Shown here piece after piece: positions 13,959 to 44,226 of a stretch of 64,000 bases of DNA. Position numbers and translations under genes: made by a program. Each line of letters starts with the position of its first letter. The first letter of the stretch is position 1. The notes beneath the pieces are model-generated. The model was not told where the DNA came from, did no database searches, and worked only from the letters and a program-made list of their open reading frames with translations. Origin of the DNA: Straminergon stramineum (lineage: Eukaryota > Streptophyta > Bryopsida > Hypnales > Calliergonaceae); assembly GCA_963920665.1 (NCBI GenBank), contig OY987264.1, positions 32,778,906 through 32,842,905 on the forward strand, written 5' to 3'.

Positions 13959-14429
13959 TTAACCCTTAAACTTGAAAGAAAGGACTAGTGATAGTGGAAA
14001 TCATTCATTTTGATACCATAGGAATCATCAATTTATAGAAATCCAAAAGCACTCATTGGAAGTCAAACTATTGTAGAAGATTTCCCCTTTCTACATAAAA
14101 TTATGAAGATGAATAGTAGTACTTCTATCCCACATAGAAAGATACTATGTCATCCATTAGACACTAAACGTCCATGTCCACATTTATGGGTTAAAAGACA
14201 AATTGGTGATTGTGAAAATCATCCCTTCTAGAACTGTGTGACATCATCTAATTTAAAAAACCCAAAAATACTCACTGGAAGTCAAACTATTGTAGAAGAC
14301 TTCCCTTTTCATAACAAAATTCTGAAGATCAATAGTTGCATTTCTGTCCTACTACTGACAGTAGAAGGATTCTTGGTCATCCATCGGAACACAAGACTTC
14401 CGTGTCAAGTTGTCGACATTTAAGGGTTA
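13959..14429. mobile_element. TTAACCC-ended element with internal direct duplication; target of the giant insertion
   Basis: It begins TTAACCCTTAAACTTG at 13959. It ends AAGGGTTA at 14429, immediately against the first base of the giant element. Inside are two diverged tandem copies of ~220 bp (about 13992-14194 and 14210-14429). They share the phrases GGAAGTCAAACTATTGTAGA and GTCATCCAT. No coding sequence. Confidence 0.5.
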
Positions 14430-14662
14430 GAGCATCCCTACGCCAACGCTCTGAACAGGCTCAACACGTTGGTTGGGCACGTCCGGGCTAATTTTCTTCC
14501 CCACGGCGGGCGCACCAAGTGAAAAAAATTTGCTGGCCACGTTGAAATCAAGATAGGGCACGGGCAAGTAGTGTGGCTTCAGAGTGCTGCGCCAAGAGCT
14601 TGGCATTCAATTCTGGCCCGCTCTCTAATGTACCGACCCCCAGCTGGCTCCCTCATGGCCTC
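14430..14662 (+). repeat. Left terminal inverted repeat of the 24.9-kb element
   Basis: It starts GAGCATCCCTACGCC and ends TCATGGCCTC. It pairs with 39143-39375 over its full length without an evident length change. Most differences are C/T or G/A, and the left copy more often carries the TG/CA state where the right has CG, as expected from methylcytosine decay. Confidence 0.9.
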
Positions 14663-14735
14663 AACGTCATTAAAATTGGTTTCAATTGAAATTCAAAGTT
14701 ATTCAAATTGAATTTAGAACCCTCCAATTTGAACT

Positions 14736-14926
14736 CATTGAGCTTAAAGTCGAACCCAATTTCTTTGCCAACTAAACTTGGGTATTCTAGAGTAATGGGA
14801 AGCTCATTATAAACACATGGGGTGGTAGGAGATATGCCAACCCCTGTGTTTATAATGAGCTTCCCATTCTTCTTAAATACCCAAATTCAATTGGCAATGA
14901 AATTGGGTTCGACTTCAAGCTCAATG
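14736..14926. repeat. Long fold-back hairpin, arms of about 85 bp
   Basis: The left arm, from CATTGAGCTTAAAGTCGAAC at 14736, is the inverted match of the right arm ending GTTCGACTTCAAGCTCAATG at 14926. The match is interrupted by a few mismatches and closed by a short loop near 14825-14840. The core GGAAGCTCATTATAAACACA (from 14800) is perfectly paired. It could be a small fold-back MITE or a hairpin that feeds small-RNA production. Confidence 0.75.
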
Positions 14927-14954
14927 ACATCAGAAAAGTTGGGCTAGATTGTTA

Positions 14955-15845
14955 TGGTGCCATTTTGACAACAATCTATCATAGAGTGTAGATCAATGCC
15001 ATTTGGGGATTTGCTTTCATACTAAGGTTGCACCAAATTATCTTAATATCATTTCAATGCAAAGTCAACATTGTCATCCTCACATCACTGTGGAGCCATT
15101 TTAAAGTCATTTTGATGTACATTAATTCAATGTCGACTTGGCATTAGTTCGACGGTCAAAATGATGCCAAATCGGAGATTGATTATTTTTGTGTTCTTTT
15201 GATGCCAATTTCACATTAACTATTCTAATATTATTGTAGCAATAATAGAGTATGGAATAATGCAATGTTATACATATAACACTTTAGTGCAATTTTTTTA
15301 CTAGTCCTATGCCATAGTGATTGAACTATTTGACTATTACTTTCATGTCAATTTACAATGTATTTTTTTAATGTCAATTTCATGCTACTTTAATGCAAGT
15401 CTATATATGCACCATTCCTTTACTATTTGCACCCCATTTTGTTGTTTTATTAGAGCATTGTTGACATGCACATTTTCAATGCAATGTTCAAGCCAATTTA
15501 CCTAACGCTATTTGAATGCCTTTTTGACACCTTTGTAATGTGAAAGGATTTTATATTCATTTTAGGCAAATGTCATGCCATTTTTGCATCATGACAATAA
15601 CATTTTAACTTTATGTGGGAGAAAATTTGACATCCCCTCCTTCAATGCCATTTTAGTGCAATTGAACTACAATTTTCATATGCACAATTTCAATGCCACG
15701 TTAGAAGACATAGTATGTACAATACTGTAGTAAGTAACAATATTTCACTATCATTTTCTCACAAATTTGATGCTCACATATTTTTGGGCTCATTTCAAAC
15801 CTCAAAGCTATTTGATTCAGTTGTCATTTTGGCACCATCATTTTT
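14955..15845. repeat. Left subterminal region with dispersed TGCCATTTT-like motifs
   Basis: No coding sequence. Short variants of TGCCATTTT recur in the same direction: near 14960, 14998, 15095, 15155, 15202, 15582, 15646 and 15822. The same motif recurs near the right end at 38.4-39.0 kb. Clustered subterminal motifs are typical transposase-binding regions in CACTA-like elements. Confidence 0.45.
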
Positions 15846-16847
15846 CTTAAATATTTTAAATAAATTTCATAATGGTGCAAATTGTCGGTAGTACTTTGAA
15901 AGATAATTTGCTAATAGTTGCTACTAGCCATCAATTTGCTAGAACTGAAGTGCTTCCTATAGAGTTTCTCTTCATAGGCTTGTATCATCTTTTCTGTCCT
16001 AGTGCTTGAAACTCAATGAGTAAAGATGGATTTGAGTTTACAATAGGAACAATCCTACAAATTGATGTCTACTTATTAAAAGAGCATCTAAAATTAACAA
16101 TTTCTAATACATAGACTTAGTTAGTAAATAATTTGTATCACATTGTAATTATATAGTATGTAGAATTTAGGTAAATGAAGTTTGGATAATAATTAGCTTA
16201 CCTATTGGTAGATGGAGGTATAATACTACATAACAATTTGCTTCATTATCCTACCACAAATATAGTGTATAAGTAGGTAAATTTTCCCTACTGTAGCCTT
16301 TACATCAATGCCAAAGTTGTCATATGGTACTTGAAATGCATGCACTTGACATTTCAATGAGATTATAGAAGTAATGCAAGCTCTCATAGTACAAATTTTT
16401 TGTTCTTTTTTTTGCATATACTTTTAAAATTGATAATTGATATTGCCATCTTGACACATGAATGTAACACATTAATATTCTATGAAAATAATATACAAAG
16501 CGAAGATCATCTTCATAGTGTGTATTATTCACATAGAGTATTAATGTGTAATATTCAAGTGTCAATATTCATTTTACATGATGGATGTAGAAAATATCAT
16601 AAACATACATAAATAAAGTACAATATAGTTGTTTGATAGGGTTAGCAATGTCAATATTACACATTGCTTAACAATTCTTAAACAATTGTCTACCACATCT
16701 TTATAAGAAGATTACTTGCATACATTATTGAAAGGAACAATAATTAGGCCTAAATTGATTATTGACAACAATGAAAATTCTCCATGTACAACAAAATATA
16801 ATACTTTATAATCTAATGTCTAGGATTTCACATATAAGTAGTACTAC
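15846..16847. other. AT-rich DNA inside the giant element, no gene seen
   Basis: Stops in all frames every few dozen codons. Small overlapping open frames at 16.2-16.6 kb occur on both strands and reflect a partly palindromic AT-rich stretch, not protein. Confidence 0.4.
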
Positions 16848-18299
16848 CTAGAACTTCCAACAATTAATGAAGAAACGTCCTGGTGTAACAAAATGTGGAA
16901 TGATGTGTACCACCTTCAAAATAGTTTGGATATTTGTTACAAAATAACGTGCCCTCAATTGCACTTGGGAGTTCCTTCGCACGTTGTTTTGAACATCTCT
17001 CAAGGTAGACTGTGTACTCCATTATAGACATTTGCACTTTGTCAATGCACTCCAATCATCATTTGGAATTTCTGTGTATAACTTTAGGAAGACCATTTGT
17101 CTTTGACTTTTTTCACTACCACTATTTGATTGGCTACTTGCCTAAAATAAAAGTCGTACTTGCCCATAGTAAATTTGTTGAATGCCATCTTCTTCTACTT
17201 CAAATGCCATGTTGCTAAAGTATGGATTGTTGTGAAAATTAATTGTCACTCAAGCATACATAGGCCAATCCCCATATCTATCTCCAGCACCAGGAGGAAT
17301 TGCTAAACATCGAGACAAACCAAGAACTTGTGATAAAGTGACATTTAATTGTAATTCATAAATTCATAGAGCTTGAAGAAACTCTTGGGGAATTTTGGGT
17401 TGATCCACTAACAATTTCTCAATTGCAACAGAAACTCAAGCTACTTCATATCGTCTTTCCATACAAAAGTCTCCAACTGTAGCCCCTGGTGTTTGGCCAA
17501 ACTCATCTCTTGTTCCATGCAACCAAATGCGGTGAAGATTCAAGTAGATGGGGGACATAACATTTTTACTTGTCTTCAAAGCCTACATATACAACATCAA
17601 ACAAAGTTGTTAAGAAAAATGTGAAATTGCTAATTACATTTGTCCATATTGAAATACATGCTTAGTTCCAAAACTTTCATAAAAATTCAAAATATATCAT
17701 GATTGACATCACTATGTTTTTATTTGAAATCTTGAACTCGCACGTTTTTTAATGTCATGTCAACAACTTCTTTGTGCTTTTTTAGTCCTTCCATTTGCTT
17801 TGCAGCTCTTCTCAAAGATTGCAACCTTTGATTGTGCCGCACAATTTGAGGCGTTGCATTTCTTTTATTGCTGCTCCGATATGTTGCTTTCATAAGAGCA
17901 ATGTGGAATTGTTCATACATATTTATTGAATATTCCCATGGTAATCCAGATCTTTTAATACATTGACTGAAATGGTTCATCATATGAACCTTTGAGGTAT
18001 TAAATCTAGACCTTTGCCATTGAAACATAGAGCCTTTTGTCACAACGTGCAATTTTAGATTTTTTTGGTTTACCAAGTCAAGCTAACCGGAAAATACATA
18101 TAGGTATCCGGAATTAGCTAAGGAACCATCTAGATCTGAATAAGAAGCGGAAAATGAGATAGTGGAAAGATCTACTCAATCCAGATTCCAGGAAGTGGAC
18201 GGGTAGGAACGGATATCTGACCGGATAGGGATGGACCGGATACCTTAGACGAACCTGATCCATAATGAGTCAGGATGAGGTGGCAGGGAGTCCAACGGC

Positions 18300-18307
18300 T
18301 ATAAAAG
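18300..18307 (+). promoter_or_regulatory. TATA box of the nested coiled-coil gene
   Basis: TATAAAAG in a GC-balanced context, 268 bp before the first ATG of the open frame at 18568. It is followed by a pyrimidine-rich leader (CTCTTTCTCATTCTC), as is usual for plant core promoters. Confidence 0.5.
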
Positions 18308-18567
18308 AACTGGAGCTACCTAGATCAAACTCTTTCTCATTCTCGTTTGCCCAGTGTTGTCTGTGCTCTGTGTTTGCCTTTGTGCCTGTCGATTAGTTTC
18401 CCGTGACAGTCTTTTGTGTTAGTGTCCGTGGCGAGACTTGTGGTCCTTGAGCGTTCAAGCTTTAATTACCGGTTGAGATCGGGGAGCGAAAGCGAGAACG
18501 AGACGTGTGGCTAGGAGAGATAGCGAGGGAGTATCGGAAAGGGTCCCGAGTGCACCAATCCGTGTCT

Positions 18568-20244
18568 ATGCCGCAGCTTAGGAGGACTAGAGGCGGACAG
18601 GCTAGTTCCAGTGTACCCCCAGCGGAGGTAAAGCTCCGGAAGGTAGTTCCGGTTGTTCCCTCCACCAAACCAGCCAAGTCCCAACTCATGGAAGACTTGA
18701 ACTCCATGGGTTGCCTAGGGTTTGCAGATAAACCCTGGGGCTTCAAAGAAGAGTCCATAGTCAAAGAACTCTTGGGCAAGCTCTCCAATGAGTTTGACAA
18801 CACTCCGCAAGCTGTTCCACATCTGTGGACGGAAGACATGTGGAGAACAACCTATAGTTTCCGCATAGGAGGGCTGGGAATGGCAAGCCGGAAGGATGAG
18901 TTCTGCCATGGGAAGTTCGGGGGAGCGGTCAACCCGAAAGACGGATATGCGGTGGACGACTGCATCGATGAGTGGCAGTGCCGGCTGCTGAAGTTCTTAG
19001 TTCCGGTCCTTCATCTGGAAAAATCGACGAGGGTGACTATCTCCCTCGCCAATACTATTTTCGGCTCTCTAAGAGGAGACCAGAAAGTGGACTGGGCTCG
19101 GATCATTTCCGAGCTGGTCACCCAACTCGTAGGAAGAGTGGAGAAGAGTAGGGCTACTCCGGTGTGCCCCTATCTCATGCACCTCTATCATTCGCACCAG
19201 CTCCTGAGCGCACCAAAGGAGAAGAGGTGGAAGGCTCAAGAAACTCTCTTGAAATATGGAGAATCGGAAACGGATGAGGAGATGAAATCCGGTTCCGATC
19301 CCGAGGAGAACAGTGAGTCAGAGGAAGAGGAGACGCCAATGCCGATCATTAAACGACAGAAGACGACCTCTCCCAACAAGCGGGGGACGCCACCCGCTCG
19401 CGACACCCCATCCCCAGAGGAGAAGCCGAAGGTCGAGAAGACGGTGTCAGAAGAATCAAATCCCGAAGATCCGTTCAGATCACTCGTAAAAACCTTATGC
19501 GACATACGAGCGGATTGGAAGATAAAAAGAAAGATGCTGATAGCAATCAGGAGGATGGTGGGAGCAACACCCGACCGGGAGCTACCGGAGAAGGTGGTGG
19601 GCTGTATTTCTGATCCGGTCGAGGCTCGGAAACAAGAAGCAGAGATCCGCCGGTTACAAGAGGAGGTGGATCGGATGAAGACAGAGATCTTGGTGCACAA
19701 GGAGAACTTCGCAGCCACCAAATCTATCGCAGAAGATGCTCGGCAGATGATGGAGCAAGTGAAGGCCATGTTCGGGGAGACCAGAGCAGCCCTCACCAAA
19801 GCCAAGTTGTTTGACGAGCAGGTGCACGAGGAGAAGAAGCTATCCAGTTCCCGGATGGTGCGGATCCTCAACGACTTTGCCGAGCAGGTAGAAGCGGCAA
19901 TGAAGGAGGCACGGAAGGCAGCGGACCGGATGGAGGAGAGTACCCGGATACTGTCGGGAGCAACTTGCTCTTGCGGTATTCGACTCTCGGATATCTTCCT
20001 CCCGGATTCGTTCCCGGAAGTGATAGCAGGAGAGGGGAAGGATACGACCCCCAAGTCCAAGAGAACGACCCAGGCTGGCACGCTTGGAACTGCCATCGAC
20101 TTGGACTCACCACCCGCGTCCAGAGAAGGCAATCCGGTTCCTCAACCTCAGGAGATCGAGAGGAGTCGAAACCTAAACGATGTTTTCAAGCAGATGGACC
20201 TGGGAGCGGACAGCGCGACCATTGGATCGCGGATAGGGACTTAG
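18568..20244 (+). CDS. Uncharacterised coiled-coil protein in the nested insertion
   Basis: Single open frame of 558 codons from the first ATG (MPQLRRTRGG) to TAG at 20244; the frame is open a further 21 codons upstream without an ATG. Residues ~40-230 form a globular region with FADKPWGF, DDCIDEWQCRLLKFLVP and LMHLYHSHQLL. An acidic Ser/Glu-rich linker (ETDEEMKSGSDPEENSESEE) and a Pro/Lys-rich stretch follow. A long charged coiled coil lies at ~320-480 (EARKQEAEIRRLQEEVDRMK and onward), then a short cysteine pair TCSCG and a polar tail. I do not recognise a family; the layout resembles gag-like or 'plant transposon protein' products found in repeats. No catalytic motif is visible. Codon use is GC-richer than the surrounding transposon, which supports separate origin. 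Confidence 0.6.
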   Translation: MPQLRRTRGGQASSSVPPAEVKLRKVVPVVPSTKPAKSQLMEDLNSMGCLGFADKPWGFKEESIVKELLGKLSNEFDNTPQAVPHLWTEDMWRTTYSFRIGGLGMASRKDEFCHGKFGGAVNPKDGYAVDDCIDEWQCRLLKFLVPVLHLEKSTRVTISLANTIFGSLRGDQKVDWARIISELVTQLVGRVEKSRATPVCPYLMHLYHSHQLLSAPKEKRWKAQETLLKYGESETDEEMKSGSDPEENSESEEEETPMPIIKRQKTTSPNKRGTPPARDTPSPEEKPKVEKTVSEESNPEDPFRSLVKTLCDIRADWKIKRKMLIAIRRMVGATPDRELPEKVVGCISDPVEARKQEAEIRRLQEEVDRMKTEILVHKENFAATKSIAEDARQMMEQVKAMFGETRAALTKAKLFDEQVHEEKKLSSSRMVRILNDFAEQVEAAMKEARKAADRMEESTRILSGATCSCGIRLSDIFLPDSFPEVIAGEGKDTTPKSKRTTQAGTLGTAIDLDSPPASREGNPVPQPQEIERSRNLNDVFKQMDLGADSATIGSRIGT

Positions 20245-21390
20245 GATGTACAGAGTAGGTAGAGTAGGAACAGATACAGAACCTGTTCCGATCCAGTGGG
20301 GAGTAGGTAGGACTGGAAAGTCTGACCAAGATGGCGGTGGAACTTTCGCGAGTTTTCCCGCCCATTTGTAACTTTTTGAAACGTATATAGTCAGCACTCG
20401 CGAGGGACGTTAGGAGTCTTCTTTTTGCAATTTTTGTTGTACCTTTGTATGCGCTCTCTTGTTGTGTGTGTCTCCCAAGCTTGGCAGGTTTGCATGATGT
20501 GGAGTTAGAAAGGTGTAAGGCAGAGTTGTGCTTAGATTTCTCCCCTTAGTGCGATAGTTTCCGATCCTTAGTGTGGGCGCAGGTTACGTAAGAGTTGAGA
20601 GTGTATTTCAGTGCCTCAGCAAGATCTAGGGTTTTAAAGTTCCGGGTGAAATAGCCGCTGTTAGGCTAGGCGGATAGGGAGGGTATCCTTAGTCGCGCTA
20701 GAACTCCTGGACGGGTAGTCCGGTTGAGTGTCCGACCTTCTGAGAGGTCTCACCACCTTAGTTGGTAAATGGAATGATCCTAGTTACTGTTGGAACGAAC
20801 AAGTACACTTGTAACCACCTAGCTTTGCACGGGTAGGAGCTGGCATTGAGGTCGTTGTAGTAAGAACGGATCGTACAGGAGATCTCTGTGTGACCTGCAT
20901 TTCGGATTGCTGTGAGGGATCAAACCGGATTCGAGTAGTTAGGAAAGGAGAGGAGAGAACAGTGGGTCTTCAACCACTACAATCCGCAGAAGGAGTGGTG
21001 GGCCTACCACTCAGAAACCTAAGCGGTGAACCCTCTGATGGTCCAACAAAGGCAAAACTAAACCGGAAGAGTATTGAGCAGATACGGGAACTAGTCGGAG
21101 CAGATTGGTTCAGAGTAGTACCAGGACCGGAATTGTTTAGGTCCTGGAGATTGGGAGAATTGGGTTCACTAGAGGATTTATGAATCGGATGGGAAGTAAT
21201 CCGGTCTTGATCCTCTTGGTGGTTGTTTGTTTCCGGTTTTAGATCTTGGACCGGAAAGGAAGTTTTAGAGGGTGAGAGCGCTTACTCTCCCAAATCAAGT
21301 AAATACTTCACAGAATCTCGTGGGTTCGATCTTTAGAGTCACTTCGTTATGCTCTAGAGTGATTTTTGTGAGCATAATAGGGAATTTACT
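20245..21390 (+). other. 3' part of the nested insertion
   Basis: GC-balanced, with TATATAG near 20384 and T-rich leader-like sequence near 20420, suggesting a second promoter. An open frame 20890-21183 (97 codons) has composition like the upstream gene but no recognisable domain. No direct repeat of the left end of the insertion was found. Confidence 0.35.
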
Positions 21391-23774
21391 TATCCTGTGT
21401 TGCAACACCTTTTAAAGCTTCCATAGCCCTGAATAAAAAATAGCATTCACCTTTTAATACAATGCATTACCAAATGAAAATGAAAAACAAGTATAATGCT
21501 TCAAATGGAAAATGCAAAAATAGTTGGAATGTAATAACTAACTATAGTAGACAATGTACCTATACATTTGTTCATCCATGTGCTTCAGACTCATACTTGT
21601 GTGGAAAGTGCTTCGACATGCTACACCATACCATTCTAGAAATAGCATTATTGCCGATATAATGTTTTCATCGAACAAGCCAACTAGGCATAGAACAATG
21701 ACCTGCAATCATTGACAATGTCATGACATTAATGATTTCAAAACTTGAACTTAGTACCAAAAAATAATAAAGTTTTATTTTGAAAATTATACTTGCATAA
21801 CAACTCGATGTTCGAATCCAGCAACATCAGCTTGTGAAACAAAATATCCTCCTTGCTCATTGCCAGGAATTCGAAAGGATGGAAACCGACAATTCTTCTT
21901 AATAAAGAGGAGTCTTCTATCCAACTCCTTCAATTTGGATTGACGTGGATGAATAGTAGCTATTTCACGGAGGATGCCAACAATCATCTTAAACATCCCA
22001 AGGTCACTTTGGTGCAAGGTATCAACATGTATTGCGAGATAAGGATTTCCAAGTTCTGTATCACCACCATTAAAGCCCCAGAGTGCACACTGCACATACA
22101 AATGCAATTATACTTTCAGTTATCAAATCCATATACATCCATGTTTAAATACAAACTAAATCCATGTCCAATTTTGAGCAAGGTCAAAAAACTTACTTGA
22201 ATAGGATGTAGAGACCAAGTTCTTCCAATCTCTGTGGCTAAATTTGAGTGTACATGTTCCATGACTCTATATATTTCTTCCATCTTTGATTCTGTGCAGA
22301 CGTGGTGTTGCATGCCCATATTACTAAGATCTTCTTTTCCACACATGCATCTACTACAAGGGGATTGGCATTGGTTGGTATCATATGTGGTAGTTACCTT
22401 ACACGACTCTAGATGATCACATATATATGCAAATAGTAGAGGGTAGACTATTTGTGGCTCTCCTTTGGGATCAAGTAAAGGAAGACCTACAAAGCTTGTT
22501 TCTTTCAAAGAGTTGAAAATCATTTCAAGACCTTGGTGTAGATACTCCATCTTCTTGGTGGATGACAAATCTGGATACATCATTAATATATTCATGAATA
22601 CATAAATTTCAAAAAATTAACATTGGATAATGAAATACAAATTATATCAAGGCACTTTGAACAACTTCAAATACTTCAAATTGTGCATTATTTAAAATAT
22701 TTTGAGCATATTAACATATTGACCATTAATTACTTACTTGATCCTTGAAAGGTAGGGAGTATAGCAAGCAACTCATGTCTAGTAGCTTCTCTTCTATTTT
22801 CAAGGGAGATATTTCCAATTGTCATCACCAAAGGATATCTAGAGATTCTTGTATTATTCGATAAACAAGTCTAATCGGAATAGAAAATCAATGGTGAAAT
22901 CACAGCTCCCGTGCATTGTAAATTGATGAAATCTTGCATTTGATGCCACCTAGATCTAGTATCGGGCGTTTTATAAATTTGTTCTCTAGTACCTAATAGG
23001 GTAGTGGTTGCCTTTAGTTTGAAATCTTTAGCATTCTCGACAGCTGAGAATAAAGATGTGAAAACATGAATGGGATTTTTGAAGTACAAATTGGCATCAC
23101 CATTGTCAACCTCTGGAAATGTATATTTTGTCCAACCCTGCCACATTCAATGTGAGAAATTCACATTCCACTCAATAAGTTTAAAAAGTACAACAATCCT
23201 TTAGCAATAATCAAAACATTGAAATAGTGAAATTGAAAACAAAATTGTTAGGATGCTTACTTACATCTGTAATAGGATATAACTCCTTGTCTTCATACTT
23301 TTCAATGTCATCCAAGCTTCTAATTGTTACAACTTTGAGATCAAATCGATCATCAAAAAGTAAATCCAGTAATGCTTTGATATCTTGTCCAGATAGACCC
23401 TCCTTATTCTTACAGTTGCGGATAAAGCTAACAAGATGAAAATTAGAATCAAATGGTTGTAAAGGTATACCATTGTCCTCCATAGTTGGCATACTTGGAG
23501 ATCCGGACATATCAGGGTTTAAGGAAGAGCCTCCCATTTGGTATCCTTCCTGCAATTGTATTGGAATGCCATTTCTACTATAAGTCTCATCGTGAACCTC
23601 AAGAATTTGAACCACATGAGCTTCACCCACTGCACTCGTAATTAGAGGTCTAGAAGTAGACAAATTAGCAACTATCTGCCTTCCTTGACATTGAGACCTT
23701 TGGTGACTAAATAGGCCAACCATCATTGAAAACCTAAAAAGGCCACATCTTGTACAACCCAATGTTTTATCCAT

Positions 23775-25223
23775 ATTTACCAAAATTCTGGAACCCCAAC
23801 AATTTTCTAATGGTTACAATACTCTAACTTTGTGCAACTTCTAATAAGTAAGTCACCTGCATTTAGAATCTGATGATAGCTATCTTACATTGAACTTGGA
23901 AAAAAACCTTGTTTGTTTGCTCTACATTGCCAGTATGAAACCTATTAAACTTATTCTAGACCCTCAAATTCAACTATAGCAACAATACTAATGCATCACT
24001 CATGAAGTAGACCCTTTTCTATAGCAAGGATTTTGAATGAAGGTCTTCAAAGAAAATATATCCTAAAATCTCAAAATTGTAATGGACACAACCTAAAACC
24101 TTTACAAACAAAACTACCGAACAACTAAAATAGTACAAGATACCTACACAATCCTAACTTAATACATCAATTCCGCTAACTTTGTACAATGACATGAAGG
24201 TGCCACTCATTCCAAAATGTAGAAGGTGGAGTGGTACACACAAAGACTTTTAGGGCAATAGAAACGTCCTTCAGCTATCCAAGTCGAAAAATTCAAATAA
24301 ACAAAAGTAATGAAACTTAAACACTCCCTGCCTCCGTCTCTCTTTAAAAAAAATTCATAAACATATACCATTCCCCTTAATGCTCTTATAAAGGTTTCAT
24401 TTTCTCTCAATCTGTCCCCTCCTACAAAATTCTGGTTTACTCTCAATTTGTTATATGACATACTATTCACATTTACTTGCCTTTTACTCAAAAAAACCAC
24501 ATATACAATTAATTCTTACTCCCAATTTCCAAATAAAAGAACAATAATGAAAATGAATGATACTCATTCTTGACTAGATGATTTGAACCAAAGGAAAATT
24601 GACCAAGACCAAATTCTTCCCAAAGCTTTTAGTGAATTAGTTTCATCTTTCAATTAATTTAGGAACACCTTGTACTATATAGTTTTTAAAAATAGAAATA
24701 AGAAGGCTTTTTGGGTAAAACTCTTACATACTATGTTTTACAAATTAATTTGCAACATGTTGACTAGAATTTACAAACTTGCACACATGCTTGGTTCTTT
24801 CTTTCAAATGTTTAAAGACAAAACTTCTCTTTTCGAAAGGGCCATCAAAGCCTACATTTTGAAATTTCACTACATTGAATTTAAAATTGGTGGTGATGCT
24901 TGTTCTCAAATATTTGGACAATGCACTTGAACCTGTTAACCGAGGAATCTTGTTGTAATTGGTGTCTTATTAAATAAATGTTGTTGAAGGTAGTTACCTT
25001 GCTATAGTGATAGTATTTTGAAGCACTTTTGGAGAAATTCAAATGTAATGGAGTTGCAAAAAATATTTTTTCTAATAATAAATTTGAAATAAGTGATTTT
25101 AAGCTACACATGGTTCGCAGACAAGCTCAACAACATTGAAGAAAGAGAGAGAGGCTGCAAAGAAACAACTGCAAGATAAACACCCCTCTGTAGGTTGTGG
25201 CAAGTGAATCCACCCAAATTATG
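23775..25223. other. AT-rich DNA upstream of the transposase, presumed promoter side
   Basis: No convincing gene. The minus-strand open frame 24207-24500 and plus-strand 24670-24930 lack any recognisable domain. Confidence 0.35.
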
Positions 25224-25275
25224 TTAACCCTTGAACGACGCGGCGGACGTTTCTTGTCCGATGGATGACATAAAA
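25224..25275 (+). mobile_element. Terminal segment of the TTAACCC repeat family
   Basis: TTAACCCTTGAACGACGCGG at 25224, followed by CGGACGTTTCTTGTCCGATG, is the best-preserved long terminus of the family. It matches 10548 in the same direction and 14360-14429 inverted. The partner end was not found nearby. Confidence 0.5.
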
Positions 25276-27943: not shown

Positions 27944-29684
27944 ACAATGCTCCTGTGACTAAGGGCATAGTGGCAGCGTGTGGTCTAGCCACGGTACTGG
28001 TTGGCACTGCAAGCGGTGCCAATGGCTTTAGCTTGTCTTATCAGGTAAAATTTTATTGTTGTTATATTTTAGGGTTTTTTGACGTATTTAGAGAAATTAG
28101 GGTGATTGTATGCCATGGAATTTAGGGCTTGGGTCGGCTAAAACTAGTAATCCAGAGTGCGGTCTAGAGAGGGAGAGGGAGAGTGTTTTAACTACGTCTT
28201 GGAAATGTGAAATGATTTTGATTAGGATGAAACTTATGTACTATAGGTAACCACACCTTAATGCGATTCTTTGAGCACTAAGGATGGTTCTAATTTTAGA
28301 CTGAACAATACCTTAACTGATTCTTGTTGGCAATTGCAAGGAGATTCTAGTGCACCAAAGTATGCCGTATTTGAATACTTTATGCAAAAGTTTTTAGTTT
28401 TCAAAGTTTTATTGGTAGATTACGTAACACTGATGTGTTAAGTTCTAGTGTGAAATTGGTATACATTCTCAAAATCAATTTTTACTTCTTGTGCAAGATT
28501 TTAGGGTTTGAGACTTTGTTACGTGTGGCAAATAGGTACCTCTGCCTTGGTGGTAAGTTTTAATTGAATCTTATATTGAATTTATGATTTGTGGAGTGAC
28601 AGAAATTGGTACAAAAGCTACAGCTATGGCGCTTACTCCGTCTAACTATCGGTAGTTGGCATGGTAGTTTTTTGTGATGTTTTCTTCAACTGTCTCCACA
28701 ATTCTTGAGGTGGTCGTACTGGCTACACTAAGAGGTATGCTGAGATCTTTGCGTTTGTACTATAGTAAATACCTTGTAATCCTCTTCCTTGCCGGAAGGA
28801 TCATACTTTTGATAGGCCTATATCTTGTCTCATTGGATCTTGCTCTAGGACATAACGATTGACATGGATTTTCATTTGTAGACCCGATCGCATCGACTGG
28901 AATTTTCTTGGCTCCTGGACCTTATGGCTTAATATTTGCTTCTTTTGTTCCTTTATTCTTTGACATCCCAATATTCACCTGTTTCAAAATCTTTGGGGCA
29001 TGCTTCTCAGACAAGTCCTTTGTCTATCTTGCCAGTTTACAGGTGAATCCTGTCCTCCGGTTGCACTTTGCCGGTGTATTTTGTACGACTTTCCAACAAC
29101 TGATTTGCACAGAAATTGTTACTCTTCTGTACCTTAGCATATGTATTTGAGTCTCTATTCTTCTGTTTGCATTCCTCGGCTATTCTAATTTCATTTTTTT
29201 AAGCAACTTCTCTTGTCATCATGGAAGCAGTCCCTCATTCCCGAAGTTTGTGGACTTCTAGCTGGGTTTTTTACAAATCCAATGTCTTGGGGATCAGAAA
29301 AGTGAAGGTCTGTGCTCTAAGACTCCCAAAAAACCATGCATCTAAGTGCATAACCAGTCTATTTTTGGCTCTTCAGTGATGAAATCCTTCCTAGCAGTAT
29401 TTTTTGACGTGGCTATTAAAACTAAGTGTCACCTATTTGTTACCTGCTTAGTAAGCAGGTGACACTTGCTTTTGGTAGCCACCTCAAACATATTTGTAGT
29501 TCAGTTGCATATTTTGCTAAGATTGTGATAGGCATTGATAGAATCGTTTTTCCCTATCCAGTTTCTGGAAGGATTGGCATCAGCAGCTGGAAGATTGTTT
29601 GTCCCACTCATGTCTGGCGTCTCCACACTACCACCAACATCTAGAGGGTCGGCTTCAAATGGACCTGCAGGTCGTTCATTCGAG
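27944..29684 (+). pseudogene. Degenerate UBAC2-type rhomboid-like gene fragment, probably captured
   Basis: Exons recognisable by protein similarity to plant UBA-domain-containing rhomboid-like proteins (UBAC2 group, ER membrane): 27944-28044 (NAPVTKGIVAACGLA, then FSLSYQ); about 28674-28734 (FSSTVSTILEVVVLATLR); 28882-29042 (APGPYGLIFASFVPLFFDIP, then FSDKSFVYLASLQ); 29204-29301 (LLLSSWKQS, then EVCGLLAG); and 29562-29684 (FLEGLASAAGRLFVPLMSG). Splice sites fit between several exons, but the exon that normally follows LSYQ (membrane segments and RQIGSNKYS-like sequence) is only hinted at near 28600 and is out of frame. The last junction is also out of frame. The C-terminal UBA domain is absent before the next gene starts at 30.1 kb. 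It lies inside the giant element, which suggests gene capture. A decaying resident gene is the alternative. Confidence 0.7.
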
Positions 29685-30102
29685 GTACATACTTCAATTC
29701 CTTTTGTGTCTTTGAATGTTTGAAGTATTTATTCATTTATTATTATTCTATTCAAATGTTGGAATTTTTATTACATACACTTTGCTCTTTCGGGATAATG
29801 GCTGTACATTCCTAGAGGTCTTGGCTGTGTGGTACTGCAACTTAGTCTTGCAGCGCCACAGGATGCTTTGAGACTCTCTTTGAATGATGTTATTGTTCAA
29901 GTATAGGAAGGGGTTGGTGTGTCAGCTGTGTGGTGTTTCTACTTAGCTAGGAGCATCATAGGATGCTTTGATGCATCACCTTTTTCCATACTTTTAAAAT
30001 TTGAGCCTTCTCTCTCACAGCTTTAGTATGCTTTGAATCTTTTTTTTCATTCATTTTTGTTGTAACAAGATTTTAATCTAGTGTTTCATATTGTTATATA
30101 GG

Positions 30103-31532
30103 ATGGGGAAGAAAACTAGGTCTAATGCGAGAAAAAATAAAGCACAGGAGCGTAGAGAGTCCGGTGAAAATGATCAAAACAAACATAGTTGCATGTTTTG
30201 TAAGTGCTTGATATCAAATTCAAAGGAATCTTTGAATGAGCACTATACTGGGAGAACACATAGACGTTTAGAGAAGCTCCACCTATACATTCTTTTTTTT
30301 TAAGAGCATGGTATTTTTCCTACCATTGGTAGAAAAACTTATGAGTGTAGAGAGTGTGGTAAGAATGGCATTCCAACTGATGTAAAGAAGCTCAAAGCTC
30401 ATCTTTACAACATCCATTCCATTGGCCCCACCAAACAGTATCCAAATTTGACTTCGGATGCAAAAGTTTGGTACTCTGGAGGTGAAAACGTTAATGTCAT
30501 ACATAGGGTCTAGAGGGTGAGGCCCAAAGTTTATTGGGTTGAGGAATATGAGCTGGAGGAGGAGTGCTATAGTTTTGATAGAGTTAGCCCTCCAACACTA
30601 TGTACGGACTCTTTAGGATGTGGATTTCATTTTTTATTGGTAAATGGACGGTTCAGCAAAAGTATCCTGGTAGAGATGACTGAGCATGCAACATTTCTAG
30701 AGGCATATGGAAACCTTACCAAATGTGGGGAAATGAAGAGGGTGGATCGTGATTCTCGAATTGTAATGTTTGGTTTTCGATATGCTTATGGAGAGATTGG
30801 AAGGTTAGTTCATTGACTACATTCACTTTCACATTGAAGCATACTTTTTCAAATGTTTTATGTTTTTGTATTCTATGTTTTTCTAACATTCTATATTCTA
30901 TACTTATATGGTGTGTGTTGATTTTTCAGGTTTAAGCATAATGTTCATGGTTGTTACAGTCGTGCTGATGTTTTATGTACTATGATCAGTGACCATTTGA
31001 AGATGCAGTTTCCAGAGGTCTTCAAACATTTGGAAAAGATTCTACAGGAAGAAGGCATTAGAGAAGAAGATAATGTTACCCTTGGAAATACTCCATTTAC
31101 TACGATGTTTGTTACACAAAATTACCATTGCAACATTCACACCGACACTGACGATGCGTCTTATGGATTTTTTATTTGGTTTGGCTCAAACGGTATGTAT
31201 ATTTTTTTCAATTTATATTTTATCATTTTATGTATTGTATTCTTATTCTTTGAACTATGTTTGATTTATTTAGTGTTTTTTTACAGGTACAAAAGACAAA
31301 CACGGAAATGAGGTAAATTTTCATCTACCAAGGGTCAAATTGTTCACTATCCCCCCACATTGGTGATGTTATGCTATGTAAAGCATCTAAGTTGTGGCAT
31401 TGTACTAGAACTGTTGGCAATAGAGGGTAGTTTGGCATTGCTCTTTATCAAAAGGCATCGTTGTTCAGATGGTATTCCATTCTGAAAAGCTCAATGTCAG
31501 GTGGTATTTATGATAAACTCACCTTGAACTAG
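30103..31532 (+). pseudogene. Zinc-finger plus TET/JBP-like 2-oxoglutarate/Fe(II) dioxygenase, decayed
   Basis: ATG at 30103. A basic N-terminus leads into a C2H2-like finger (CMFCKCLISNSKESLNEH), then a frame break at a T-run near 30290, then a second finger (YECRECGKNG, ending LKAHLYNIHS), one in-frame TAG near 30512, and a conserved-looking region to a donor at 30803. Exon 30930-31192 holds NTPFTTMFVTQNYHCNIHTD, giving the H-x-D iron ligands (HTD). Exon 3 starts at 31287 (FHLPRVKLFTIPP). A frame shift in a run of C at about 31350 then separates it from GDVMLCKASKLWHCT (second His) and FGIALYQK. Fold order and ligands match the TET/JBP group that oxidises 5-methylpyrimidines in DNA. TET/JBP genes travelling with KDZ/Plavaka transposons are known from fungi. 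Two frame breaks and two stops mean this copy is dead. Family call from motifs; moderately sure. Confidence 0.65.
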
Positions 31533-31828
31533 ATCAGGAGTTGTAATGAAGAGTATGATTAGGATTCTATACCCCAATAGTATAGTATTTCGATCTTGAT
31601 GTATTTTGAATTTATACAAAAAAATTCTATTATTCTATTCTATTATGATATTTTTGATTTTTACATTGTCTTGTAATTTCTAGTGGCAATTATTTTGTAT
31701 AGATTTAGTTAAAGCTATGTATAGAGCTCAATTGAAACTATCAAGATTATGTTTTTACATTTGAATGTTTACTACATATGCCTTTTTTTACAATGATTGT
31801 CTTTTGTGTATTTCTTCTACAATAGCTT

Positions 31829-33254
31829 AAACCTCAAAAGATGACTAGAAGGCCTCTTTTCCCCCAAAAATACTCAAAACTACCATTTCTATTACAAAAA
31901 GTAAAACTTGTGAAGATTGTACAATTGTTTCATATCTAAATGTAGAATATTATACCTTACCAATATAAGAATATATGTACTAAATTTTAAAAAATTCAAT
32001 CAAACAAATTGTAAGTTGATTTTATTTAAAGTGAAGTATAACTAGTTTTTTTGTACCTTGTATAACTACATCATTTGACTATTAACATTTTTTACTTAAA
32101 TTTTTTATACTACAAAGTTTCAAATTTTAAATCTTTATAGTAGGAAATCAAATTGAAAGTATAGGAAAAAAAGTTTTAAGCTTAATTTTTATTGTTTAAA
32201 AAATTATTAAATAGAAATAGGTACAAGATAGAGGGACATTAACCTAAATTATGGATATCTCTAAGATGAAATTGAATTACACTAATTACAATCATGGAAT
32301 TATTTGAATGAGTAAATTTAACTATGTGGATTTTTTAGTTTAACCCCTACAAGACCAAGGTGATTTTCCAATTAAAAAACACTCAAAACTATCATTTCTA
32401 TTACAAAGAGAAAAGAACATGAAAAATTGTGGGGTTTTTTTGCATATCCAACCATAAGATCTTATATCTGACTTGTATAATAATACATGGAAGAAATTTC
32501 AGAAACTTTGATTGTGTAGATTGCAAGATGTATGCATTTAAAGTAAAGAAAACAAGTTTTTTTCCACTTTGCTCAACTAGATTTTTTTGGCTTTGAATCT
32601 TTTTAGTTCCCATTTTTTACACTACGGATTTTGATTTTCTACTTATTTATGTTGAGTTGAGAATATACAAATTTTTTTTGGAAAAAAGCACTTAGTTTTT
32701 ACTCATCAAAAAATTGTTAAGAAGAAGTGGGTTTAAGATTGAAGAAAAAACTAAATTGTTAATAGTTTTTAGATGGAATTGAATCACAATAATGCCAAAG
32801 GTGAGATTGTTCTAGGAAGAGAATCTAATCTTATCTAGCATGTTTTTTAGAAAAATTCTAAAAATTGCATTCAAAAATGAATTCCACAGGTTATTTTTTC
32901 AAAAAGATGCTTAGATTGCCCGAAAAACTAAGATTATCCATAACTTTCTCATTATTAGTCCAAATTGAATGAAACAAAGCTTCACATGTAGACAAAAATA
33001 CAATCTTGAGAAAAAAATTTGAAAAAAAATTATTTTGACTTTCTGTGATTTTTTTTGTGCTGCCCAAGTGCCCAACGAACTCCATTTTTGCTTATTATGC
33101 CATAACTTTTGTTCCTAGGCATTGATTAAAATAAAAAAATATTTTTTTATAAAGCTCTTGCAAAAATACACAACCTCTAAAAATTCCAAAAACTATCACT
33201 AAAAATTGAGACGATAGGAACCTAACCAAGGGGACAAATGGTCCTTCAAGGGTC
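31829..33254 (-). repeat. Two adjacent inverted-orientation copies of the ~1-kb TTAACCC family
   Basis: 32339-33254 starts TTTAACCCCTACAAGACCAAG and ends GGTCCTTCAAGGGTCAAA, an imperfect inverted pair. Its interior phrase TGGAATTGAATCACAATAAT (from 32773) is the reverse complement of the phrase in the kinase introns. A second, diverged copy lies at about 31829-32338. Both share CTCAAAACTA and CATTTCTATTACAAA. No coding sequence. Confidence 0.55.
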
Positions 33255-35326
33255 AAATTATGAAAAATTGATCTCTCTAAAGAAGTCCAATAAATTATTT
33301 TTTCAAAATGTTGATATAATTTCATAGGGAATAAGATGCCCAAAAACTCTCAGATCTCATATCCACATGAGATGAATCAAAACTTTCATGTAGAAAAAAA
33401 TATAATTGATAGAAAAAAATACAAACAAAAATTCAAATTTTTGTGAATTTCTTTTTATTACATAGGCTCCCCTGTTTTCATGCCATTTAGCCTAATTTTT
33501 GCTTCTAGATGCCAATTGAAAAAAATTTATATTCCCACAAAGCCAATTATAATAGTTGTTTTATATTCAAAGAAAGTTTCAAAAAATAAAAAATAAAAAT
33601 TAGACCATGATACATACCTACCCAAATCTAATTTGTCCCTTTAGTGTACTCAATACAACAAATGATCTTTCAAGGGTTAATTACAATTGCAACTTTTAGT
33701 TGATAATTATATTCAAATGAGTATTTATTCCATCATTGTAAAAACATATATTGAGTCATTTATTATAAAAATCCTACAATTTACAATTTGATAGAATTGT
33801 AGTTTATTCTTCAATCTTTATTTTACACCCTCCTTACAATAATGAACTACTAAAAAAGTTTATGCATTAAAAAGTATTTTACAGTAGTACTGTGATATAG
33901 AATTTTATTCTTTTTTCTTTAGAGTTTAGAATTTGATATTAGAAGCCCTCTAAACTATATTCTAAATATAAAGTAACGGAAGTCTTTGTTATGTAATCTA
34001 TCGTGGTGATCCATTTCAAACTTCAATACAGCTACAATACCTCTTGTATACAATACTTCTTATATACGAAATAGGTAGCAGTGTATTTCTATACTATACA
34101 CGTGTCAAAAGGTTGCTTCTGCAAGATTTGAATATTGGCGGCGCCATAATAAATACACTTTCACAAAGCTTCTAACTAAAGTTTTTTTTGCTAGGAAGGT
34201 CCAACTTCCGCCATTGTCACTTATGGATTTCTTTGTGCAAAACTGTATTCTTCTTGCACAATTGTGCGACTCATTCACGTGGTAAGTCTAAGCGCTTCGT
34301 ATGCAATCCAATACTTGTTTTAGCACATGTATGTAATGTATAGAATATCAAAATGATTTGATCCACCAACTATATAAGTTTTAGAAAGAATGTTCAATTG
34401 TTTGTATTTAGAATCTAAGTGTTGATTACAAACTTCATTGCCTAGCTTCAACAAAATATGCAAGAACACTAAAAGTATAGAACAAAAACATATCTCTTGT
34501 ACTCTTTTGCATTGTGAAACTTTGAGAGATTTATTACAGTAGGAAGATCATGTACTAATTATTATCTGTTAAAAAATCCATTCTTATTGCAAATGCTTGG
34601 CATCTACTTTTGTATATGTGAGTTTGTTCACATTGGAAACCTTCTTTTCATACTAACGAGTAACGACATGCTAGTGCAACAAGAACTGAGGATATAGAAG
34701 TTGTTCTATCATTTCCAAGTAATTTAATGTATACCTTCATTTATTATGGCTTGATTAGTATAAGTGACTTATTGTTGTTTAATCTTCACTGAAGATTTGA
34801 ATTATTTCTTAAGTTCATAATTAGTAGTGGATTTTTGGTTAACCTTTTTTGGAATTAGGTACATCTCAGACATCTCATGGCATTTTTATTTGGAAATCGT
34901 TGGATGTTTTGAATAATTTACATTTGTATTTGTCAATTACATAGATTCCATTGTAGCAATTCCATCTCTTACAATTTTGTTTGTGCTACTTAGATTATTG
35001 TTTTTGCACATTCATTTTTTTACTTGAATGATTTTTGTGATGTATATTTAACAATGTATTTTGAATATGAATTTAAGGAGTTTCTATCAATTTAACCATA
35101 TTTAGTGAACTTGCTTCATACTAGAGAAATTATTAGATCATTTTTGTAATATTTTTTATACTCATCATTGGAACAAGTAAAGGATGGTTAGACTATTTCC
35201 CCTTTGAAAAGCTCCAAACAATTGTAGTAGTGATGGTGGTTGCCACTCCTATATTATTAGGGTATAGAAATTTTTGTTTTTGATGTTATCCATAAGTTAG
35301 TGAATTTGTTGATTTCAGAATTTGGA
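33255..35326. other. AT-rich DNA, presumed promoter/5' leader of the 412-residue gene
   Basis: A family end (CTTTCAAGGGTTAATTACAA) lies at 33668. A GC-richer island at 34135-34285 ends with a good donor, CACGTG|GTAAGTC, and may be a non-coding first exon. Otherwise no gene is visible. Confidence 0.35.
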
Positions 35327-36927
35327 ATGGCTCAATGGATGTTACAAGAAGCAAGGGCTACATTTAAAACAATTGGCAATGGTAGGAGGCAACAATTGCC
35401 CCACCCAAGAACTGTAAGCCAACGTCTTACTGTTGAAGAGCATGCAACATCTTTGTTGGAGGAAGCTCGGCGACTACGAAGTGGTGAACTCCAAACTGAA
35501 AATCTAATTTCTTCATCACCTACTTTACAAGAATGTAAGTTTTCTTTCCCATTACCTATCCTTATATAAAATGTAGTGACTAGATGTTTATTAATACTAA
35601 TTTTTTTTGGAGCATTGCTTCAAAGTGTTTTAATACAGTTTGTATTGATTTTATTGATGTTAGATGATGACCTAAACTTTGCCAACAATGGTGAGCAAGG
35701 AATTCTAAATCCTAGACATACAAGACATGACAATGAAGCAATCAATGTTCCACATCCAACAAATGCATATGGAAACATTGGTGGACCTAGTGTGGGAAGG
35801 GTACCTGAAGCTTCTCCAATTGGTGTAGCTCCAATCACTGTTGACAAAACTGAAGCCTACTATAGTATTCAAAATTTAAAAATACTAAAACAATGCAAAA
35901 AATACAAAGATTCCCTTATGGATTGTCAATCATCTCTAAAAGTAGCAACAAATGCTTTGAAAGCAATCGTCCAAAACAATGAGTCAATCCCTGATTACTT
36001 GGACATTATCAAGATCAAGGTAATGTTGAATAGACAATTTAAAATTTGATTGTTGTACTCAAATGCTTCTCATTTAAAAACATGTTTTATTGATTAACTT
36101 TATTATAATGACTTCTTTGGTTTTTGACAATTTAATTCTATGTTCATTTTTTATAGGCAAAGCTTCCAGGGATCATCAACAATGTTCTTTTTGGTGCTTT
36201 TGATTTTTCCACAATGTTTCCTTCAATTGATATGATGATGGAAGGAGTTCTTATGTCTTTTGAGATTGATGAAGATGTTGAAGTCCGTGCTTCATTTTCA
36301 AAAATATGGAATGAGCCTAGACTGTCAACAAGGAGCATTAGATCCATTGTCATTAGGACATTTTCTAATCAGAGATCAAATTTTGGAGGCATAGCAAAAA
36401 CAGAGATGTTTCAGCTCTTGGGTGTTCCAGTTTTGTTGAGTAATGCTACTTTGGAAGAAATTGCATTCCGGGGAGCTAAGATGGAAGAACTAAAAGCAGG
36501 TATAGTATGTGCCTATGCAATTTTCATCCTGATTATAATAGTTTGATCAACCATATTTCATTGCTCAATCTAATGATTTGGACATAATTATGTAGGTGAT
36601 GCTTGGAGGGTGAAGGTCAATGACGATGGATCTCGAGATCCTTTTGGAAGTAAAGCTATACATGGTGCTATTGCAAAAGCCATATATGGTGAGACATATG
36701 ACATTGACGCACCAGTTGAGATAACATTGGAACAAGCAGGATGGTTGTTTCATGTTCTTTCATTGGCAATGGGAGGTAACAACCTTGAGACACAAAAAAC
36801 TATGGAAGATCGCAGGATGATGGCACGTTGGGAATGTGTGGCATTGGAAGAGGTCAACAACATGAAACGAATTCACATAATCAATCCATCACCAGCAACT
36901 ATGGCTAATGTAGCTGGTCATTCTTAA
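35327..36927 (+). CDS. Intact four-exon gene for a 412-residue protein of unknown family, carried by the giant element
   Basis: Exons 35327-35534, 35664-36019, 36157-36499 and 36596-36927 join in phase at every GT-AG junction into 412 codons plus stop with no interruption, in contrast to the other element genes. The N-terminus (MAQWMLQEARATFKTIGNG) is helical and basic. Residues ~70-120 are low-complexity and Asn/Pro/Gly-rich. Next comes a helical segment (ILKQCKKYKDSLMDC), then FGAFDFSTMFPSIDMMMEG and RSIRSIVIRTFSNQRSNFGG. The C-terminal domain has WRVKVNDDGSRDPFGSKAIH and ITLEQAGWLFHVLSLAMGG. I recognise no family and no catalytic motif. It is not membrane-bound. By position it could be an accessory DNA-binding or repressor-type protein of the transposon, analogous in role only to TNPA-like factors. 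The ATG choice is the first in frame after a possible acceptor at 35318. Function is inference. Confidence 0.65.
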
Positions 36928-38340
36928 ACTTTAAAATTGTATTGTTTAGAATAATATTTGAACTTTACTTTGCTTTTATTTTATTTTGTTGTTTGAAAAT
37001 TTGTAATTGAGCCATATTATTGCAATATTTATGAAGCATCTTGTGCAACCCTTCTATATTGCACAATTTCTACAAGGAAAGTTCTTACCATAAAGGTTTG
37101 AAAATCACATATTGATTTTGCATTAGATTTGTCTATATTTTGTATATTGTAATAGACAATATGTACAATATATTTTTCTACTCCCCTTGGTGATAAGTTC
37201 ATAATTTTTTGGATGGGCCCCTTTTGATTTTGGACCAAAGATTAGCAACCTAATGACAAATGATGCAAAGTGGTTTGGGGCAATCTTTTCTACAAATCAG
37301 GTTCTTCAATGCCACATCTTCCTTGAATTGATCAAGTATAGTTCATATTTCAAAAATGTACAGATTGAATTATATTGCTTGTTGGTATGTTTTGTTACTT
37401 GCATTGAAGATGTATTATTTTTTATCTGTAACATTACTATGTATTAAATCTAGTGTTAAGCTTGTATATCATTGCATATTGGAAATGTTTTAGTTCTGAA
37501 TACTAATATTTTCCACATTTCATTTTTCTTCAAAGTAAAGTGTTAGATAGCTTTACTACAACTAATGTGTGGATTGTTGAATACAACAGACTTCAACCAT
37601 TTCAGAGCCTATTTGGGTGTTCTATGTATCTTACATTAGATTAGGTATGTATACCTAACTGGATAACTTCTCCTAAATTTCGTTTTTGGAATTGAAATTC
37701 TTGTTTAGTTATTTACTCATAAAGTCTTCATTTAATATATTTTTTATTCCTTTCCAAACAATGGTAGGGCCATCAATGATTAGATTATTGCTTGGGATTA
37801 TTGTATGTATCTTGTATATTGGTACCATAGACTAATAAAGTATCTATTTACTACAGGTGAAAACAAAAGCATACTTGGAAGTATTAGGAATTGATGGTAG
37901 CACATGATGGAGGTAAGTAGATGTTCTTCTCCATTTTTAGTATAACCAAAGATCACTCAATGGTTGTATTGACCAAATTTAGATGGAGCTAGTATTTCTG
38001 TATTTTTAGCATGACATTCAACCTTTGAATAGTGACTCACCACTCATACAATAGGACTCAGTCCGTCTGTCAGGCATTGTGTTTCATTATGATGATGAAG
38101 ACAACTAAATAGATTTAGCTTTGTAGTATTGATTACAATTGTAAATACTTGGGTACTAAATACATATAGGCATCTATTGTATTAGGTGTTGATTGCCGCT
38201 ATGTAATGTCAGCCTATAGTATATATGCTATATAAACTTGAATAAATGGTTTTTGGCACTCAACATTGACTTGTTCTCTCTCTCTATATATGTATATCAA
38301 AATTCCTACCATGATCATCACCATTACTAGAACGGAAGGT
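36928..38340. other. AT-rich DNA inside the giant element, no gene seen
   Basis: Small open frames at 37.0-37.4 kb are not convincing. A possible downstream exon or terminator region of the 412-residue gene cannot be excluded. Confidence 0.35.
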
Positions 38341-39060
38341 GTATTAATGTCTTGTTGATGATAAAGTGATTGACCACTCAATGCCATTTTGACATTTAGT
38401 TAGTATAGAAGATGTTTAAATATGAAACTTACATTGATGGCATTATATTTAAATTTACATTGTTCTATAATTTGCACTACTATAGCATTAGCATTGAAGG
38501 TTTTTTAGTATTACTTTGTATAGTAATTCAACATCAAAAGTTCAAGATGTTGGCATATCTCATTTTAATAAAGTTGTGGAATCATTTTAGCATCAAAAAC
38601 ATGTGATGGTTAGGTGTCAGTGTTACAATTACATATTGCTATTATATTGATATTTTATAGCTATTTGAGCATCAAAAATACATTGATGAGTGTCATTTTG
38701 TAGAAAATGTAGTTTGATTTTAGTACAATTGTGTTGCCATTTTCACATAAGAAGTCATCATGTTAGAGTTATCATTGATCTAACATTGTTACAAGTCAAC
38801 ACTAAATTAGTGTAATTGTGGAGCCAATTTATCATTCTCACAATTTGACATCTTATATATGTCTAAGCTACATGTTGTCATTTTAGAACACAAATGGTAC
38901 AACTTTTACATCAAAATTACTTAGCATTAGTCCGTCTAGACCTATTTTAGCATGGAAACAATGTCTAACAGTTTGAGTGCCATTTTAGCATTAGAATAAT
39001 AGGCCCTTATAGAATCCAGGTTGCATTAACCTAGTCCATGTTAACATAACATCACATTGA
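38341..39060. repeat. Right subterminal region with dispersed TGCCATTTT-like motifs
   Basis: Copies of the motif seen near the left end recur here: near 38383, 38691, 38738, 38879 and 38979, with related GCATCAAAA phrases at 38540-38680. No coding sequence. Matching subterminal arrays support the two TIRs being ends of one element. Confidence 0.45.
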
Positions 39061-39142
39061 CATTAATCCCCACATTAACTTAACAATATGTAGTTTTGAT
39101 GACAATATGGCACCCTATTAACATGCCCTGAAGTTCCTGATG

Positions 39143-39375
39143 GAGGCCATGAGGGAGCCAGCTGGGGGTCGGTACATCGGAGAGCGGGCTAGAATTGAAT
39201 GCCAAGCTCTTGGCGCGGCTCGCTGAAGCCACACTACTTGCCCGTGCCCTGTCTTGATTTCAGCGTGGCCGGCGCATTTTTTTCACTTGGCGCGCCTGCC
39301 GTGGGGAAGAAAATTAGCCCGGACGCGCCCAACCAGCGTGTTGAGCCTGTTCAGCGCATTGGCGTGGGGATGCTC
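39143..39375 (-). repeat. Right terminal inverted repeat of the 24.9-kb element
   Basis: Reverse complement of the left repeat. It begins GAGGCCATGAGGGAGCC and ends GGCGTGGGGATGCTC, followed by the TTA duplication at 39376-39378. It is more CpG-rich than the left copy. Confidence 0.9.
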
Positions 39376-39378
39376 TTA

Positions 39379-44154: not shown

Positions 44155-44226
44155 ATCAGCGAGGGTCCATTGACTGACTCTGAGCAAATTGAAACGGACT
44201 CGGACACGGCTTTTTCTATAGCTCTT

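Follow-up and report, generated by a model that had tools for sequence, protein, structure and literature searches.

Analysis of a 64,000-nucleotide stretch of the Straminergon stramineum genome (assembly GCA_963920665.1, contig OY987264.1, positions 32,778,906 to 32,842,905 of the forward strand; hereafter the window, with positions counted from its first letter) revealed a giant Plavaka-like transposon of 24,215 bp at 14928..39142 (+), with the tips CATCAGAAAAGTT... and ...AAGTTCCTGATG. The element is nested in a fold-back miniature inverted-repeat transposable element (MITE) and has its own borders, its own GA target duplication and its own gene content, and we hold this reading with high confidence. 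In a preliminary description of the same DNA, two 233-bp inverted ends had been taken as the bounds of one 24.9-kb transposon with a TTA target duplication. The inverted pair is present (14430-14662 and 39143-39375, arms of 233 bp, 92% identical, TTA outside both). However, its members are the arms of a fold-back MITE of ~730 bp, the TTA is the target duplication of that MITE, and the 24.9 kb consist of the small MITE plus the 24,215-bp element nested inside it. Likewise, the empty site with a single TTA that had been predicted is the site of the MITE and not that of the giant element. The preliminary description was right in its general idea, as the DNA does contain a giant cut-and-paste transposon with several genes, while the ends, the target duplication and the family assigned to it were wrong. 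The case illustrates how a nested insertion can mimic a giant element with wrong ends.

The host MITE has the fold-back form, in which a left arm is followed by a turn and then by an interrupted right arm. Between the TTA duplications at 14427..14429 (+) and 39376..39378 (+), it comprises the whole left arm, the hairpin turn (~14833) and the inner right arm at 14430..14927 (+), and the outer right arm at 39143..39375 (-), the latter being the right terminal inverted repeat (TIR) of the preliminary description. The last base of the inner right arm is 14927 (...CTCAATGA), and 39143 (GAGGCC...) is the first of the outer right arm. The interval 14928-39142 opens with CATCAG and closes with CTGATG, and GA is found on both sides of it (left copy, 14926..14927 (+); right copy, 39143..39144 (+), which also provides the first bases of the outer right arm). 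When the flanks were joined with a single GA, a collinear hairpin was obtained whose arms align over nearly their full length, the sole gap being ~72 bp missing between two CTCA repeats. The chance of finding both 5-base tips at two given junctions was ~2.5e-6 (from the window frequency), and the anchored tip alignment scored 41, compared with a maximum of 26 in 1,000 single-base shuffles.

The 233-bp pair is the longest of 11 inverted pairs listed for the window and lies far above chance. Both arm tips are GAGCATCC, and the 18 mismatches between the arms consist of 14 transitions and 4 transversions, 9 of them being of the CpG type. The left end was searched against the 326-Mb assembly (59 contigs), with 40 of 81 candidates scored; 38 matches lay outside the window, of which 20 were fetched (10 kb each) and 18 were not. 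An opposite end, sought as GTGGGGATGCTC with <=2 mismatches at 0.4-1.2 kb inward, was detected in 17 of the 20 fetched copies (shuffled inward sequence, 8 of 1,000) and was not found in L013, L017 and L023; at loci with two candidate opposite ends, the fitting one was chosen. The trinucleotide TWA precedes the end at 16 of the 20 fetched loci. It is identical on both sides in 12 of the 17 two-ended copies and differs between the sides in the other five (L011, L012, L016, L020 and L022). The relatives of the 233-bp ends are MITEs, and what the preliminary description had itself named as an outcome contrary to its proposal, TIRs occurring as independent short elements, is largely what these fetched copies present. 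Agreement in TTA is weak evidence, because the relatives insert at TTA or TAA, and two unrelated ends would coincide in about one of two cases. L009 matches the left window end at 88% over 420 bp plus part of a central hairpin, and the right end over only 233-234 bp (93%); each window end thus has close relatives besides the other. Two members of the host MITE family, L012 and L022, are 1.2 kb long with long central palindromes. We presume a PIF/Harbinger family resemblance of the host MITE from its TWA duplication, its GAGCATCC tip and its short terminal repeats. A literature search on GAGCATCC-like MITE tips gave nothing useful, and a TIR piece of the MITE had 0 matches among viral contigs.

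It is extremely improbable that two independent truncated MITEs flank a stretch of unrelated repeats by chance. The family is indeed common (81 candidates) and agreement in TWA is cheap, but the right-arm parts ending at 14927 and starting at 39143 represent successive left-arm positions, bar one microhomology gap, and the interval between the MITE parts is a repeated unit with fixed tips. In a check for each MITE's other end inside the interval, the 17 two-ended MITEs were compared with the window, and their R end was matched nowhere.

The borders of the giant element recur in other copies. In a first search, the 473 bp inward from 14928 were used as a query (40 of 358 candidates scored), and 51 matching stretches were obtained. 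Ten were other long copies, nine of which include the first query base and one of which starts 48 bases in; there were also a split piece and 39 short stretches of 37-177 bp, of which 37 match from the first base. This search alone cannot show a border, because the query began at the tip. In a second test the query was extended by 1 kb outside 14928 and compared with loci L030-L036. At all seven loci homology starts at or near the proposed border (at 14928 in three, 14927 in two, 14924 in one and 14909 in L034), and the flanks outside 14928 differ among the loci. One of these copies, C5:19449778-19471259 (21,482 bp), has both borders, with its right end exactly at 39142. It is ~95-97% identical to the window element across the shared blocks and carries the transposase gene, a dioxygenase gene and a third open reading frame (ORF3).

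These copies also decide on a single 24.9-kb transposon with 233-bp inverted repeats, a TTA duplication and a PIF/Harbinger-like transposase, which is very unlikely. Such an element would fit the inverted orientation and the TTA on both sides, and of the 40 genome candidates scored (81 in total), none matches the left end better than the right end does. However, 17 of the 20 fetched end copies are short elements, MITE arm sequence was found on both sides of the inner junctions, and homology never runs on to 14430 in any of the seven other giant-element copies checked. It is contradicted by copies that are bordered at 14928 and 39142 and lack an adjoining MITE arm. Profile scans of the interior, covering selected stop-free ORF pieces and not every frame, revealed no Harbinger domain.

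Several observations weigh against the reading given here and have to be set beside this evidence. The right border was compared in three other copies, and C5 is the only one to reach it: homology in the C3 copy extends to 39134, 8 bp short of the end, and then passes into other sequence, and homology in the C7 copy is lost at 38396. The target duplication of the C5 copy is unreadable because a MITE abuts its right end, and ORF3 of this copy contains four stops. Finally, the other MITEs examined have unlike ends, an L and an R, and not an L with its own inverted counterpart.

The Plavaka transposase gene lies at 16851..23774 (-), encodes ~890 aa in at least 7 exons and is split by a 3,370-bp insert, into which the last residues of the initial gene model extend. 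The first six modelled exons match PF18759 with an E-value of 2.8e-32 (112.7 bits, cut-off 26.3). Three relatives were identified, an 890-aa protein of Ceratodon purpureus (53%), a partial protein of Sphagnum compactum (46%) and an unnamed one, the two named ones both being from mosses, and collinearity extends over nearly the whole gene. The window copy has six in-frame stops, five of them in the last exon and one in the first six, such as decaying methylated cytosines would be expected to leave, and no frameshift was seen relative to protein P0001. A PDB sequence search with the Ceratodon transposase gave no match, and an AlphaFold model of this protein (3 sequences) reached a pLDDT of 30.7 and was not used.

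The element combines the features that characterize Plavaka, namely the PF18759 profile, CATCA..TGATG tips and 2-bp duplications (GA in the window, TA and GT at short derivatives). From its family it is predicted to be a cut-and-paste transposon of the CMC group, with the corresponding transposition chemistry. A placement in Lanisha, or in some other CMC lineage, rather than in Plavaka is rather unlikely, though the closest transposase relative, from Ceratodon, bears a protein name suggestive of the U chromosome, and Lanisha was reportedly described from Ceratodon. Lanisha (Repbase Reports 2020) is CMC-like, as is the giant element, and Kojima (PMC12730594) treats it as an EnSpm-like lineage separate from Plavaka, which would leave room for such a placement. 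The PF18759 match speaks against it, as do the tips and the 2-bp duplication. In the fungal study (Kojima, 2025; PMC12730594), PlavakaB is described with CATCA..TGATG tips and 2-3-bp duplications, into which those of the window element fit, and the TET-bearing Plavaka families are assigned to it.

Short derivatives provide further instances of the tips and of 2-bp duplications. A 179-bp element at L025 shares both tips with the giant element (93% over 43 bp and 88.6% over 35 bp) and is flanked by a TA duplication; a neighbouring element, 94% identical to it, has an altered right tip and no clear duplication. Within the C5 copy, another 179-bp derivative has TA on either side, and the corresponding site of the window holds a single TA; a further derivative, beside the C3 copy, is flanked by GT. 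Elements of ~179 bp with Plavaka tips were seen at L025:5872-6527, at 21102-21280 of the C5 copy, in the left flank of L030 and in L037 from 3761. Several of them directly adjoin larger members of the family or lie within them, which would be the picture if insertion were drawn to the tips. Within the window element, the left subterminal region (14928..15900 (+)) contains nine TGCCATTTT-like repeats in the first kb (<=1 mismatch); four occur in the 1-kb bin starting 23 kb into the element, and the other bins hold 0-2 per strand.

A gene for a TET/JBP-like dioxygenase was identified at 30103..31460 (+). Exon 1 (30103-30803 (+)) encodes a zinc-finger-like N-terminal part, exon 2 (30930-31192 (+)) contains HTDTDD, and exon 3 (from 31287 (+)) contributes the distal H and Arg. 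The motifs HTD, LWHCT and GNRG, corresponding to the iron ligands HxD...H and the C-terminal Arg, are present in both the window and the C5 copies. The C5 copy matches Tet_JBP with an E-value of 6.5e-6 (25.9 bits, profile positions 49-162 of 164), and Tet_JBP ranked first. Other scores count against this assignment. The exon-2 ORF of the window gave 5.2e-4 for Tet_JBP (19.7 bits) and a slightly better 1.1e-4 for STAR_dimer, the joined window protein gave 3.2e-3 (17.2 bits) and 4.1e-4, respectively, and all Tet_JBP scores are under the Pfam curated cut-off of 34.9 bits.

A PDB search with the window dioxygenase placed CMD1 (7cy4) best of 4 matches (E-value 0.53); with the C5 dioxygenase, CMD1 was the last of 8, behind unrelated chains (E-value 1.9). 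CMD1 was the only TET-type chain among these matches, and with the weak E-values and the low rank for the C5 copy its likeness is a lead only. By hand count, H345, D347, D350 and W358 of CMD1 are matched in the dioxygenase (D at +5 and W at +13 of the motif; residues as given in PMC7854593). According to the same paper, D350 of this Chlamydomonas enzyme contacts 5-methylcytosine (5mC), and W358 hinders 2-oxoglutarate (PMC7854593).

The TET of fungal Plavaka is of the PE type, the hallmark of which is HxE according to PMC12730594, whereas both copies examined here have HxD. Because of this difference, the dioxygenase gene was likely captured separately from the fungal PE-type gene, as far as its motifs indicate. 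The gene might also be a passenger that takes no part in evading methylation, which we consider rather improbable. It is broken in the window copy (two stops in exon 1, a stop plus a frameshift in exon 3), and a single stop interrupts the modelled frame of the C5 copy, as would suit a passenger. However, the gene occurs in both copies read across the region with the Fe-binding HxD, the distal H and the Arg kept in both, and a 949-bp contig from elsewhere holds a relative of exon 1 that is 66% identical and open.

The present structure very probably arose in three steps. A fold-back MITE of ~730 bp with PIF/Harbinger-like ends inserted at TTA, its right arm lost ~72 bp between two CTCA repeats, and the 24-kb Plavaka-like element of the CMC group then inserted into that arm with a 2-bp GA duplication. 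The transposase of the element would act on its CATCAG...CTGATG tips and probably also on the subterminal repeats. The dioxygenase would most likely act on 5mC in the DNA of the element and so counter silencing; such an anti-silencing role is our best guess by analogy with the fungal elements. The window copy itself has decayed and, as predicted from its reading frames, can make neither an intact transposase nor an intact dioxygenase. It is dead, with stops in both genes and the 3,370-bp insert.

ORF3 (35327..36927 (+)) encodes 412 aa in 4 exons with GT-AG borders and is open throughout in the window copy. No relative was found at E <= 0.001 among 6,947 candidates, and no Pfam family was matched.

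The insert in the transposase gene is a later nested insertion of 3,370 bp at 18039..21408 (+), with the tips GTCACAAC and GCAACAC and a 5-bp duplication, CTTTT; the C5 copy holds the empty site. An interpretation of the 3.4-kb gap in the transposase gene as an intron plus an insert was rejected, as the C5 comparison reveals a simple insertion that duplicated CTTTT. The insert contains an ORF of 592 aa (18466-20244 (+)) that had no Pfam match above the cut-off, and no long terminal repeats were seen in it. A partial copy in L020 is 79% identical over 1.27 kb.

The window copy contains a 1.65-kb stretch at 27831..29475 (+) that the C5 copy lacks. Its gene-like pieces may resemble a plant UBAC2-like rhomboid protein, and the stretch is perhaps a captured host gene fragment. 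An AT-rich repeat at 31866-33640, with ~70% similar stretches in L010, L012, L013 and L018, is possibly another nested element, yet it is also present in the C5 copy. Outside the element, a tandem duplication with a spacing of 3,097 bp at 41226-47272 comprises a protein kinase gene and a neighbour of unknown family. The window also encodes a TOC159 membrane-anchor domain (E-value 9.1e-111), protein kinases and a TPM-domain protein. This gene content indicates a chloroplast-bearing host, most likely a land plant, and the moss relatives of the transposase make a moss likely.

Plants are thought to erase 5mC by glycosylases, and TET enzymes are not known to act in the escape from silencing in land plants. 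The fullest proposal is that of a land-plant lineage of giant Plavaka-like elements that captured a CMD1-like 5mC dioxygenase in an event separate from that of the fungal PE type, modifies its own methylated DNA with it, perhaps with ascorbate as co-substrate, and thereby escapes silencing. We offer this as a speculation that is more probably wrong than right by a wide measure. If true, transposons would have gained methylation erasers more than once, in this case within a glycosylase-using kingdom. The finding would be of considerable interest if the dioxygenase were active, and the several closely similar copies in one genome provide a testable system for methylation and activity. TET-bearing transposons have been described from fungi (PMC12730594). 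No TET-bearing transposon of a land plant was found in a few searches of the literature available, which is weak evidence of absence, as most subscription papers were not covered.

Compared with known systems, the host MITE family shares the TWA duplication and the short two-ended elements of PIF/Harbinger-type plant MITEs, and the window copy differs from them in its fold-back L...L' form. CMD1 is a host gene whose product modifies 5mC, whereas the dioxygenase described here is borne by a transposon and its similarity to CMD1 is far from significant. The closest counterparts of the giant element are the fungal PlavakaB elements (PMC12730594). With them it shares the transposase type, the CATCA..TGATG tips, the 2-bp duplication and a TET/JBP-like gene inside the element, and it differs from them in a third gene without relatives, in its size (24 kb in the window and 21 kb on C5, for two copies measured), and in its plant host.

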